A stretch of 29,556 nucleotides of DNA from Anaerolineales bacterium (lineage in GTDB: Bacteria > Chloroflexota > Anaerolineae > Anaerolineales > Villigracilaceae): NCBI GenBank assembly GCA_016928525.1, contig JAFGKO010000254.1, positions 1 to 29,556 of the forward strand, given 5' to 3'. A model generated the notes under the pieces. That model had not been told where the DNA came from. It saw nothing but the letters and a program-made list of their open reading frames with translations, and made no database searches. Both the position numbers and the translations under genes were made by a program. The first letter of the stretch is position 1; each line of letters starts with the position of its first letter. Positions 1-23,123 of this stretch are shown one piece after another.

Positions 1-2
1 TG

Positions 3-380
3 CAACGACACAACGGGCGCGTGCAAATGACCACCGCCCCCGAGACCGCCGAAGCGATCGAGCGCTTCCTGGGTTTGGAGGCCACCAGCCACCTGAGCCG
101 CGCCGCGCTGGAGACGCTGGCGATCATCGCCTACCAGCAGCCGGTCACGCGCCCACAGGTGGACTCGATCCGCGGCGTGAACAGCGACGGCGTGATGCGC
201 AGCCTGCTCAGCAAAGGACTGATCCAGGAAGGCGGCCGCGCCGAAGGCCCCGGTCGCCCGATCTTATACAGCACCACGCCCGAGTTTTTGCAACACTTCG
301 GATTGAATTCTTTGAATGAGTTGCCGCCGCTGGAGCGGGATGAGAGTAGCGAGCAAGATGTGACGCTGTTGAAGGGGTAG
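3..380 (+). CDS. scpB: Segregation and condensation protein B, 5' truncated by window edge
   Basis: This is the C-terminal part of ScpB, the winged-helix partner of the ScpA kleisin in the SMC condensin complex that compacts and segregates the chromosome. The frame is open from base 3 with no stop, so the gene begins left of the window; the internal GTG at 21 and ATG at 27 are unlikely to be the true start. Family signatures are the [10 protein letters not shown] segment, the [15 protein letters not shown] helix and the [17 protein letters not shown] / [18 protein letters not shown] blocks, which together make the second winged-helix domain. Base composition is GC-rich, unlike the AT-rich DNA that starts just after its stop. 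In many bacteria scpB is directly followed by an RluB-type pseudouridine synthase. Here that gene lies 2.7 kb downstream, behind an accessory insertion. Confidence 0.93.
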
Positions 381-926
381 ATTAGCCGGGAATGCAAAAG
401 ATTATTTTTGTATCGTAAAGTCCAGATAGGCACCGTATTTTTTCTGACTATGAAATCCTAAGCCCTCGATATAAATTCGCAACTCTTTATAAGGTAAAGC
501 CTCGAGCTCCCAATTTGGTATATCCCAAGTATTTGGAATTTTAGAATCTATTGTTTCTAGTTTTGCTGGAATTATTTTTTCATTGTTCGCAGGTATCATA
601 GAAAGTCTTACTTGTTCCCAATTACTTTCTAAAGGAGAAAAATGGAATAACTCTGCTGAAAAACCAACATTACTAAATATAATAGGTTCTTCTGTATGAT
701 TAAAAACCGTAAAAGACAGAAAGTTTGGAGATGGGGGAGGCATATTTAAAGGCTTTAAAAGGTAGGCTCTTTCAATTGTGACGCCATGATTTACATCGAT
801 TCCTTCTGCAATTGAGTTTAAAAATAATTCATTGGCAGGTTCAGTTATGGTGGGAGTAGGTGGAAATGCTACATATTCCGTTGAATGCGTGTCGGTTTGC
901 TCATTTTTACATCCAATAATTATTAA

Positions 927-942
927 AAATCTCGTGCATAAT
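927..942 (+). repeat. Left terminal inverted repeat of the IS
   Basis: AAATCTCGTGCATAAT, matching the right terminus at 13 of 16 positions; TGCATAAT is the perfectly shared inner block. The CATAAT hexamer lies 6 bases before the transposase ATG and could act as a -10 element, with the -35 supplied by flanking DNA (inference). Confidence 0.8.
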
Positions 943-948
943 TGAGAT

Positions 949-1905
949 ATGTTGACATACGAAAAACTTCAAAGAAAACCGAAACACTTCCAGGCCTTCA
1001 CAGGTGTCAGCGTTGCACAATTTGCAGAGATCCTGAACGCCCTTCGACCAGTATATGCTGAGCTAGAGGAAGAACGCCTGACCCGTCCAGACCGGAAACG
1101 CAAAATTGGTGGTGGACGAAACTTCACGTTAAGCCTGGAAGATCGATTACTGGTCACGTTGATGTACTTTCGTTTGTACATGTCGTATGCACTCTTGGGA
1201 TACCTGTTCAATTTGGATGGTACCAATGTTGGTCGTGAGATTAACCAGCGCATGTTGCCAGTCTTGTTGAGCATTCTGCCTGTACCGATGCAAGATGAAC
1301 TCTTGAGCGGGCATGATGAGCCACCCCAAATCGGTGGCGGCAAACGGATCAAGACCCTCAAAAAGATGATGGAAGCTCACCCTGAAATCAAGGAAGTCTG
1401 GGTGGATGCAACCGAACAACCGATCCAGCGTCCGAGCGAGAAATTGGCTCGCAAACAATATTACTCCGGCAAACAAAGTGAGCATACCATCAAGTCGCAA
1501 CTGTTGACCACCAAAACGTTGATCTTGCATGTTTCTGGCAATCTGCCGGGCAGTGTCAGCGATTCGACTGTCCTGGCTGGGTCTGGCATCATGCATTCCA
1601 TCCCGGAAGATGTGCAAGTCAACCTTGACCGTGGATATGAAGGTGCAGAAGATCGTTATCCTAACAACAAAGTCTACAAACCGAAGCGTGCTCAACGTAA
1701 CCATCCGCTGACTTTGTTTGAGAAACTCTACAATCACCTCATCAACAAAACTCGTATTCTTGTGGAGCATGTGATTGGACGATTGAAGAAATTTCGCATC
1801 GTGTCTGAACTGTATCGCAATCGGCGATCCGCTCATGCCGACTATCTTGTCGCTGTGGCTGGCTTGATCAATTTCAGGGCGCTCAATTCTCTCGATTGGG
1901 CATAA
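949..1905 (+). CDS. IS5-family transposase (DDE_Tnp_4 type)
   Basis: A 318-residue DDE transposase that cuts and pastes the surrounding IS. The N-terminal 100 residues form the helix-turn-helix region (LSLEDRLLVTLMYFRLYMSYALLGYLFNLD, the usual substrate-recognition block, is given here only by its position 61-90). The catalytic core shows the expected acidic triad: Asp153 in VDATEQPIQRP, Asp227 in NLDRGYEG and Glu273 in VEHVIGRLKKF, with the YYSGKQSEHTIKSQ motif at 171-184 typical of the IS1031/ISL2 group. Length and frame are intact. The ATG is only 22 bases inside the left inverted repeat, leaving very little room for a promoter. It is transcribed opposite to the lipoprotein gene it interrupts. 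Confidence 0.93.
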   Translation: MLTYEKLQRKPKHFQAFTGVSVAQFAEILNALRPVYAELEEERLTRPDRKRKIGGGRNFTLSLEDRLLVTLMYFRLYMSYALLGYLFNLDGTNVGREINQRMLPVLLSILPVPMQDELLSGHDEPPQIGGGKRIKTLKKMMEAHPEIKEVWVDATEQPIQRPSEKLARKQYYSGKQSEHTIKSQLLTTKTLILHVSGNLPGSVSDSTVLAGSGIMHSIPEDVQVNLDRGYEGAEDRYPNNKVYKPKRAQRNHPLTLFEKLYNHLINKTRILVEHVIGRLKKFRIVSELYRNRRSAHADYLVAVAGLINFRALNSLDWA

Positions 1906-1954
1906 GCCTGGGCAAATACCTTGCCTGATTGCGTCTGTCTGCCTTTCTCAAATT

Positions 1955-1970
1955 ATTATGCAGAAGGTTT
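1955..1970 (-). repeat. Right terminal inverted repeat of the IS
   Basis: Read inward it is AAACCTTCTGCATAAT, 13 of 16 identical to the left end; it is followed by the TAA duplication at 1971-1973. Confidence 0.8.
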
Positions 1971-2021
1971 TAATGATATTCCTACGAGAAAAAACAGTTT
2001 TGTTTTCATAGTGATCGTCCT

Positions 2022-3053
2022 TTAGGGATTCACCATTGGAAGTTCGTATGGCAAGAAAGCTCGCTGTGCAAAATAAGTGTCATTGCTTACTTGGATTGTA
2101 ATTGTGACCCACATATTTTTAGGGCGACTTTCCTCTCCAAAGAATAATACGTTGGTCTCTCTTTTTACGTACTCATCCGCTGATAAGGTAAAGTCCCCAA
2201 GCGGAACTTGATGTACGACATCATTCTTGCTCTTAACATTCAACGTTGAAAATGCCGTTGTATCAGAGTCGGGATCTGACATCCCAAAAGAATAATCTTC
2301 GATAATCGTTAGATTGGTCTGATACTCATAAAATTCTATTGCATATCGAGCAGAATATTCCACGCTTGACTGTCTTCCTCCAAATAATTTAACCCCTTTG
2401 TCCTCATCTGGGTAAAACCCGGCAGAATTATAAGGAACATTGGGAGCACCAGTACCACAATATCCAGTTATATAGCTCCCCCCCGTAACTAGATCTCCAA
2501 TCACAACTGTATTGGGCTTGGTTAATATAGAATCAACAGGCCTGCCACCTTTAGGAGCTACAAAAGTCCCATCTCCATCGCTATTTCCAACGCGCCTCCC
2601 AGACACAATTTTAAGGCCTGTATTCTTTTTCTTGTTAGAGGCAAAACCACCGCCTTCGTCTATCCAATGGCCGGTTGGGTCATTATAACGGATAGGATTA
2701 TTAAGCACATACGCATATCTGTTCCAACTTTGCGGGTTCGCCGGTCCCGGGACGAGGGAGTCGGGTTGAATGAATCTGGCCAGCCGCGGGGAGTAGAACC
2801 TGGCGCGATAATCCATCAGGCCAACGTCCGGCAAATTCCTTTGGAACGTAAAAGTGTAGTCGGCTAGTGCGATAGTTGAGTAGTCCGCTAGTTCGCGCGG
2901 TTCGCCAAAGGGCATATAACGCTGCTGTTGCGGGACAGCGGCCTGGTCATCCAGCACGGCCAGGGTCGAGCCGAGGCTTATGCTGCCTGTCCCTTCGGGA
3001 GGAGCCTGCTGTCTTGCACCGGCGTGCTCTCGGCACGAACGGTGTCGAAGCAT
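2022..3053 (-). pseudogene. Orphan RHS C-terminal fragment with variable tip
   Basis: This 343-codon frame is the distal end of an RHS/YD-repeat protein. Residues about 24-130 carry the end of the RHS core: GSTLAVLDDQ, QRYMPFGEPREL, LMDYRARFYSPRLARFIQPD and the hallmark NRYAYVLNNPIRYNDPTGH. After this conserved boundary comes a tip of about 210 residues (131-343) with no toxin or other family I recognise. Intact RHS proteins have cores of roughly a thousand residues; here everything upstream of about 110 core residues is missing, and the first 20 or so residues read like non-coding DNA, so this is probably a truncated or displaced tip and not an expressed protein. The core part is GC-rich and the tip clearly AT-richer, the usual mosaic pattern. 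A lipoprotein gene begins 12 bases after its stop on the same strand. Confidence 0.75.
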
Positions 3054-3091
3054 GGTCGGTGTGGAAATAGGTTCAACGTTCCAGGTGCGAG

Positions 3092-3097
3092 TATAAT
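3092..3097 (+). promoter_or_regulatory. Probable -10 box of rluB, leaderless arrangement
   Basis: TATAAT ends 8 bases before the rluB ATG at 3106, and no Shine-Dalgarno sequence lies in between (CATCTCCT). A transcript starting the usual 6-8 bases after the -10 would begin at or next to the start codon. No strong -35 hexamer is visible. Confidence 0.5.
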
Positions 3098-3105
3098 CAT
3101 CTCCT

Positions 3106-3837
3106 ATGGAAGAGCGATTACAGAAAATATTGGCCCAGGCCGGTCATGGCTCCCGCCGTTCGTGTGAGCAATACATCGAAGCCGGGCGCGTGCGCGTCAA
3201 CGGGCAGGTGGCGAAGTTGGGACAAAAGGCAGATGTCGCCAAAGATAAAATCACGTTGGATGGCAGGCCTGTGGCAGTCAATGTGGAGTATGTTTACGTA
3301 GCTTTGCACAAGCCGCGTAATGTTTTATCTACGGTTACAGCAGAACCGGGGGATAACCGCAAAACGGTGCGCGACCTGGTGGATTTGCCGGAGCGTTTGT
3401 ACCCGGTGGGCCGCCTGGACTTTGATAGCGAAGGCCTGATCCTAATGACCAACGATGGCGATCTGGCCAACAAGCTGACCCATCCGCGTTACGGGCACGA
3501 GAAGGAGTATCGTGTGCTCCTGGCGCGCCGCCCGGATGACAAACAGTTACAGGCCTGGGCGCGCGGAGTCGTGCTGGAAGATGGTCACCGTACTGCGCCC
3601 GCTCAGGTGCGTTTTGAGTCCACCTCGGGAAAGGGCGCCTGGATTCGGGTCATTATGGGGGAGGGACGAAAACGCCAGATACGCGAGATTGGTTTTTTGC
3701 TTGGGTTGCCGGTTGTCCGCATTTTGCGCATACGAATTGGCACATTGCGGCTGGACAATCTAAAGCCCCGGCAATGGCGCTATCTGACGACACAGGAAAT
3801 CACTGAATTGCGCAGGTTGGTATCGAAACAAAAGTAA
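3106..3837 (+). CDS. rluB: Pseudouridine synthase of the RluB/RsuA family
   Basis: Isomerises a specific uridine in ribosomal RNA to pseudouridine; RluB modifies 23S rRNA and RsuA 16S rRNA, and the sequence alone does not exclude the latter. The 243-residue protein has an S4 RNA-binding domain at about 1-60 (ERLQKILAQAGHGSRRSCEQYI), then the catalytic domain with the signature GRLDFDSEGLILMTNDGDL at 102-120, in which Asp105 is the catalytic nucleophile, and the late motif GRKRQIREIGFLLGLPVVRILR. Length is normal. Placement near scpB matches the common scpA-scpB-rluB order and favours RluB. Translation probably starts at 3106, on a leaderless or very short-leader mRNA. The gene ends at a strong bidirectional terminator shared with the convergent CBS-ACT gene. 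Confidence 0.92.
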   Translation: MEERLQKILAQAGHGSRRSCEQYIEAGRVRVNGQVAKLGQKADVAKDKITLDGRPVAVNVEYVYVALHKPRNVLSTVTAEPGDNRKTVRDLVDLPERLYPVGRLDFDSEGLILMTNDGDLANKLTHPRYGHEKEYRVLLARRPDDKQLQAWARGVVLEDGHRTAPAQVRFESTSGKGAWIRVIMGEGRKRQIREIGFLLGLPVVRILRIRIGTLRLDNLKPRQWRYLTTQEITELRRLVSKQK

Positions 3838-22439: not shown

Positions 22440-23123
22440 ATGGATGAGCAAACATTTCCCATTCAAATCAAGGGTTTGCGCGATGGGCTACTCATCACAG
22501 TAGGAGATGGCGACTGGGCAGCACTGGAACCTGCTTTATTCGAGCAGATCCAATCCCAGCAAGCTTTTTTCCGAGGCGCGCGGGTTGCATTGGACGTCGG
22601 CACTCAAATATTACGGGTGAATGAACTGGTTTCATTACGAGATAAACTCTCTGAACAGGGGATTTCTCTCTGGGCCGTTTTGAGCGAATCTCCTACAACC
22701 GAAAAAACTGCGCAATTGTTAGGGCTGGCGACCCGTATTTCGAAACCTCGTCCGGAAGAAACGCGACAATTTTCTGTCGACGACCTGGGTGATGAGACGG
22801 CTCTTTTTTTAAGCAAGACGCTACGGTCTGGAACCAGGATTGAATTTCCCGGACATGTAGTAGTATTCGGGGATGTGAATCCCGGTGCGGAGATTGTAGC
22901 TGAAGGCAATGTGCTCGTTTGGGGGCGGGTACGCGGCATGATCCACGCCGGGGCAAAAGGAGATACGTCGGCTTATATCTGTGCGTTGGATTTATCTCCT
23001 ACGCAGTTGCGTATTGCGAATGAGGTTTCCGCCGCGCTCGAGCCGCAGAATGATCCGCGCCCGGAGGTCGCCAGTCTCAATGAAGATGGTAAGCTGCAAT
23101 CAGTTCCGTGGCAGCCAAGCTAA
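22440..23123 (+). CDS. minC: Septum site-determining protein MinC
   Basis: Inhibitor of FtsZ ring assembly, recruited to the membrane by MinD. The 227-residue protein has a divergent N-terminal FtsZ-inhibiting domain (about 1-100) and the well-conserved C-terminal beta-helix domain: RSGTRIEFPGHVVVFGDVNPGAEIVAEG, GNVLVWGRVRGMIHAGAKGD and ICALDLSPTQLRIA, the surface that binds MinD. The long strings are given only as landmarks at about 128-195. No Shine-Dalgarno is evident before the ATG and no other in-frame start exists nearby. It is followed 18 bases later by minD. Confidence 0.92.
   Translation: MDEQTFPIQIKGLRDGLLITVGDGDWAALEPALFEQIQSQQAFFRGARVALDVGTQILRVNELVSLRDKLSEQGISLWAVLSESPTTEKTAQLLGLATRISKPRPEETRQFSVDDLGDETALFLSKTLRSGTRIEFPGHVVVFGDVNPGAEIVAEGNVLVWGRVRGMIHAGAKGDTSAYICALDLSPTQLRIANEVSAALEPQNDPRPEVASLNEDGKLQSVPWQPS

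Follow-up and report, generated by a model that had tools for sequence, protein, structure and literature searches.

An IS5-type insertion sequence in a predicted lipoprotein gene next to an RHS-core reading frame in an Anaerolineales bacterium

How did a predicted lipoprotein gene come to lie in two pieces on either side of a transposase gene, and what might that gene have done for the RHS-core open reading frame (ORF) beside it? Both questions are raised by a 29,556-nucleotide stretch of an Anaerolineales assembly (GCA_016928525.1, contig JAFGKO010000254.1), referred to here in its full length as the window. An insertion sequence (IS) of the IS5 type, 1044 bp long, occupies positions 927..1970 on the plus strand, as delimited by its ends, its target-site duplication and its exact fit to an uninterrupted homologue of the split gene, protein P0001. 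A sequence-only reading of the window had proposed that an element with an intact transposase was caught inside a lipoprotein signal peptide. The window's own sequence and the uninterrupted homologue together leave very little doubt that this insertion is real.

The disrupted gene lies on the minus strand and comprises 186 codons when intact, with the IS situated in the part encoding the signal peptide. Its 5' piece (1974..2009, minus strand) contributes 12 codons, the start of the signal peptide, and matches the beginning of P0001 except for one residue. The 3' piece (402..923, minus strand) contributes 173 codons and the stop and contains a lipobox, IIGC. A search of 5.8 billion proteins with this 3' piece alone, which reaches only relatives sharing short exact words, returned 22 candidates, and two reached E<=10: the 113-aa remnant of the window itself and P0001 (186 aa, E 1.1e-87), which is 76% identical to the 3' piece over its full length. 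P0001, represented by 2 member sequences and 5 contigs and compared as a protein, is the sole close homologue found. It starts MKTKLFTLVGISLIIVGC / MKTKLFTLVGISLIIVGCKSEQ, while the 5' piece of the window reads MKTKLFFLVGIS, the duplicated codon supplies L, and the 3' piece begins IIIGC (IIIGCKNEQ). The junction is thus exact to the residue, with none gained or lost (12+1+173=186) and the frame in agreement. Since an uninterrupted protein carries the predicted start with exact length and frame, the insertion site is settled.

The in-frame empty site of 186 codons that the sequence-only reading had reconstructed is therefore matched by P0001 in length and frame, and the search it had recommended for an uninterrupted 186-residue lipoprotein in relatives returned this same protein. 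It had also named homologues of the 3' piece lacking the MKTKLFFLVGISL start as evidence that would speak against the insertion; the one close homologue does begin in this way, apart from a single changed residue. The signal peptide and lipobox were assigned by eye. The insertion divides the gene into pieces of 12 and 173 codons, depriving it of its secretion signal. Read upstream, the 3' piece meets a stop within the IS, with no in-frame ATG, GTG or TTG before it. A 113-codon ORF is left at 402-743 (minus strand), which starts at an internal ATG, has no signal peptide and corresponds to the predicted protein P0002. Comparison of P0001 with viral contigs gave 8 stretches with a pattern match and 0 relatives. 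The single match of a lipoprotein profile among 317 genomes has an E of 0.0085, covers 63 positions in a frame of 637 aa and was judged to be due to chance.

The TAA copies at 924..926 and 1971..1973 are present around the 1044-bp element as originally described. The terminal inverted repeats, 927..942 on the plus strand and 1955..1970 on the minus strand, read AAATCTCGTGCATAAT and AAACCTTCTGCATAAT and are identical at 13 of 16 positions, so that the 16-bp inverted ends claimed earlier are real but imperfect. At a match rate of 0.27, at least 13 matches in 16 are expected by chance in ~1e-5 of pairs; as many end pairs are possible, the repeats by themselves are not decisive. An ungapped scan returned a second, internal pair (943/1950) with 13/18 matches and AAT flanks, which by eye is a continuation of the same ends past a small offset. 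A 4-bp TTAA duplication (923-926 / 1970-1973) yields an identical empty site, and the 3-bp duplication is favoured because of the duplications found in relatives of the IS.

The transposase gene (949..1905, plus strand) is an uninterrupted ORF of 318 aa, in keeping with the claim that it is intact. Its product exceeds the Pfam cut-offs for PF13359 DDE_Tnp_4 (94 bits against 24.8; E 9.4e-27), PF01609 DDE_Tnp_1 (48 against 23) and PF13613 HTH_Tnp_4 (41.8 against 27; E 7.9e-11), and thus combines a DDE domain of the DDE_Tnp_4/DDE_Tnp_1 kind with a helix-turn-helix, as members of the IS5 family do. Residues D153, D227 and E273 are invariant in 120/120 homologues (the best 120 of 353, the window's own included); we take them to be the catalytic residues. 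Weighing against a firm family assignment, the NCBIfam IS5 models all score below their cut-offs, the best being NF033581 with 81.7 bits against 140. The element is therefore named IS5-type and is not filed as a curated IS5 equivalog.

Transposases encoded on Deinococcus plasmids, 34-37% identical to that of the window, offer a view of target choice. Six copies were read, one per record, from six records holding 15 places in all, in a scan that gave no bonus for a duplication and required both ends to start AGA. It was run in this way because an earlier ranking of 13 loci, window included, had rewarded duplications. AGACC opens the ends of all six (AGACT at one right end), and each element is flanked by a 3-bp duplication, five times TCA and once TGA; the duplication-favouring scan gave the same result for four of the six, and the two D. 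grandis copies differ in their flanks. ISDge6, described as 'IS5 (ISL2)-like', has ends AGACCtGCTGCGAAA..., a TCA direct repeat and reported transposition (PMC7674623). It was compared by its printed ends alone, and the 14 plasmid records that reach E<=1e-30 include none from D. geothermalis. Like the Deinococcus elements, ISDge6 included, the window's element encodes a DDE transposase and has ends that start A(G/A)A(C/T)(C/T) and contain an inner TGC. It also resembles them in having a 3-bp duplication, TAA here and TCA/TGA in Deinococcus, and in its length of 1044 bp against 1075-1125 bp (ISDge6 values from PMC7674623). It differs from them in ends richer in AT.

The TAA duplication and the ends of the window agree with this TNA pattern, and a 3-bp TNA duplication is the rule for the IS1031 group as well, which prefers 5'-TNA-3' and generates a 3-bp repeat (PMC12016507). 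The likeness to that group lies in the duplication and the size class; against it stand the NCBIfam IS5 scores given above. A TNA-type duplication alone names no family, because IS630 elements show TGA, TAA and TCA too (PMC10017437). In contrast to Deinococcus, the best-ranked readings of the 13-locus scan give AAT (L006, L019), ACT (L005), ATT (L002) and ACA (L004) for Chloroflexota and cyanobacteria relatives whose ends match at 15-18/18 bases, and these count against the TNA reading. The best-ranked readings of L032 and L044 have no 3-bp duplication, and L027 runs to the end of its contig. It may be that related transposases select their targets differently, with TNA in Deinococcus and AAT, ACT, ATT or ACA elsewhere.

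Elements with ANT duplications are consistent with bacterial IS5 (PMC4482050), and one element has been placed between the IS427 and IS1031 groups (PMC2516522). Among the relatives grouped around this IS there seem to be elements of either kind, TNA and ANT. The sequence-only reading had taken the TNA duplication to indicate the IS1031/ISL2 subgroups: the TNA part is borne out in the six Deinococcus copies, and the subgroup is unsettled by the relatives with ANT. The name of the IS5 subgroup should stay unfixed because of these ANT-type duplications. Copies with different termini, which the sequence-only reading had named as counter-evidence, were sought among relatives of ~30-38% identity, with the same division between TNA in Deinococcus and ANT or ACA in the others. 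In its ends and its target the IS, as judged from sequence, is similar to ISDge6 and to the IS1031 group.

How widespread the element is can be gauged from its transposase. A homologue search passed 353 sequences at E<=1e-3 among 2655 candidates, and the best 120 are 82-100% identical, 17 of them at 98-100% with the window's own counted. For ~110 of these 120 the longest contig is <=3 kb. Near-identical transposases mostly on short contigs are what a repeated IS produces by breaking metagenome assemblies, so the IS is probably common in its habitat. No copy of at least 80% identity was found with legible flanks: a genome-contig search for close copies with flanks gave 48 pattern matches and 3 distant loci only, and viral contigs and phages gave no match in either. 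Among 400 Chloroflexota genomes drawn, 15 matched the transposase, the best full-length match being 38% identical. None of 251 genomes from the order of the closest relative matched the IS at E<=1e-40, a search which had no positive control and so shows little. Plasmids searched with the transposase protein gave 251 records, all <60% identical, and a plasmid DNA search with window positions 1-3500 gave 25 records, where the 20 matches listed cover the scpB part only. The insertion is plausibly recent. As an event it is ordinary, another copy of a known sort.

The neighbour of the split gene, overlooked in the sequence-only reading, is less ordinary. A 343-codon ORF (2022..3053, minus strand) ends 12 bp before the lipoprotein start on the same strand, and its own 5' end is 52 bp from rluB. 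It encodes an RHS-associated core (TIGR03696, approximately 2667-2918, E 2.4e-18; NCBIfam) and a C-terminal tip of ~180-200 residues. TIGR03696 alone was found in the 343-aa product, and domain scans found no RHS repeats there; the ORF thus has the make-up of an orphan module, an RHS core with neither N-terminal repeats nor an export part. The core and linker are common to the window, P0124, P0125 and P0127 (the last named as Chloroflexota), the linker reading HWIDEGGGFA.NKKKN...KIVSGRRVGNSDGDG, and the tips are unlike beyond it. The RHS core has a G+C content of 0.575; the value is lower in the tip (0.415) and lowest in the 3' piece of the lipoprotein gene (0.347).

A common core and linker with unlike tips is also a feature of polymorphic toxin systems (PMC3482391), from which the window differs in that its tip has no recognised toxin domain. 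The ORF and the lipoprotein gene show a somewhat probable resemblance to the orphan rhs-CT/rhsI modules of enterobacteria, in which an RHS C-terminus has been displaced, lacks the long N-terminal part and has a small gene close behind (PMC3967940); in the window a main rhs gene was looked for at the ends of this region only. Unlike those modules, the window has a tip without a known toxin domain, a partner predicted to be a lipoprotein and a Chloroflexota-like host. A precedent for an anchored partner is SARI_02726/SARI_02727, where a small exported protein annotated as an immunity lipoprotein stands beside an effector matching a type VI Rhs protein (PMC12992299), a likeness drawn from the published description. 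It is tentatively possible that the partner in the window was a membrane-anchored, immunity-like protein. Equally tentative is the fuller proposal that tip and lipoprotein formed a Chloroflexota effector-immunity pair, with the immunity protein anchored outside the cell membrane, and that the IS inactivated the immunity gene and left the orphan tip open. A literature search, covering result listings and passages of some of the papers listed, found no description of such a Chloroflexota pair.

A second instance of the arrangement bears on this proposal. In 1 of 251 genomes searched, at locus L039, a distant relative of the lipoprotein (25% identity) has an RHS-core ORF immediately upstream of it, in the same orientation. 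Its hydrophobic start differs and it lacks a lipobox Cys, which is to be expected of so remote a relative. Two RHS-core-like ORFs with unlike tips flank this relative within L039 429-2936 (minus strand), like stacked modules of RHS tip and partner. The lipoprotein thus adjoins an RHS-core ORF in two loci, and the similarity between their tips is weak. In phmmer the window tip is the top hit (E 0.045). A single family made up of the window tip and those of P0127 and L039 was considered and dropped: a three-row profile finds no other tip at E<0.1, and the shuffle scores are weak. The tip profile matched three of 251 genomes, of which G403 is itself a profile row and the other two (E 0.03, first part of the profile, stops inside) were judged chance.

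Several observations weigh against the effector-immunity proposal. The tips of the window and L039 reach a BLASTP E of 0.052 in one comparison, and their score is attained by 13 of 1000 shuffles; when 114 RHS tips are ranked by shuffle Z, the window tip comes third. Neither Pfam nor NCBIfam places a toxin domain in the RHS-core ORF, the fold models are of low quality (mean pLDDT 61 and 42), and fold searches give generic beta-rich matches with TM <0.5 among the matches listed (50 each). An appreciable possibility is that the two genes are chance neighbours, functionally unrelated, and that the split gene is a decaying accessory lipoprotein. The arrangement is known from two loci only, and any relationship between the tips is weak at best; yet so rare a partner lies again behind an RHS-core ORF, on the same strand, which argues against coincidence.

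Two further explanations concern the insertion itself. That it was selected, through a change in a surface trait by lipoprotein loss or new expression from the IS ends, is improbable; the position within the signal peptide is all that speaks for it, and the 3' piece has an internal start only, with the in-frame stop inside the IS. Even less credence is due to an assembly artefact, in which a repeated IS copy served to link two contigs that do not belong together, so that the gene only seems to be split. Near-identical transposases are frequent in metagenomes, mostly on short contigs. The flanks, however, carry matching halves of one 186-codon gene within a target-site duplication, and scpB and rluB, on opposite sides of the element, are neighbours in 4/8 related loci.

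These two genes border the region. The 3' part of scpB (21..380, plus strand; PF04079, E 7e-40) stands at the left and a gene for an RluB-like pseudouridine synthase (3106..3837, plus strand; domain scans) at the right, and the 2.7 kb between them (381-3105) hold the RHS-core ORF and the lipoprotein gene. The Chloroflexota-like character of the host shows in the protein encoded at 22440-23120: of 400 genomes drawn from the phylum 129 contain a match to it, and the best of them, G388, has a counterpart at 75% identity. Nine related genomes were searched for rluB, which was present in 8, and the best locus of each was read with 1.5 kb on either side. Within these limits scpB abuts rluB directly in four (L046, L050, L051, L052) and was not found in the others (L047, L048, L049, L053), and none of the 8 contains an RHS or lipoprotein match. 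Because scpB abuts rluB in half of these loci, with no RHS or lipoprotein gene there, the 2.7-kb stretch is most likely accessory.

The likely history, on the preferred reading of an accessory RHS module broken by an IS, would begin with the entry of an orphan cassette of RHS tip and partner between scpB and rluB. The next event is the one that the sequence and the uninterrupted homologue show: the IS, IS5-family-like in its DDE transposase and its TNA duplication of 3 bp, transposed into TAA at codon 13 of the lipoprotein gene, splitting it into its two pieces and removing the secretion signal. Loss of the partner would have been tolerated because the RHS fragment has no export or delivery part.

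With its ends, target and uninterrupted homologue all pinned, the element can serve as a dependable reference for an IS that metagenomes contain commonly, but mostly on short contigs. Of greater interest than the insertion is the RHS neighbour, which is the part worth following. The split gene may once have been the protective partner of an RHS gene fragment and, if that partner was an immunity protein, the locus would constitute a natural immunity knock-out beside an open effector tip.
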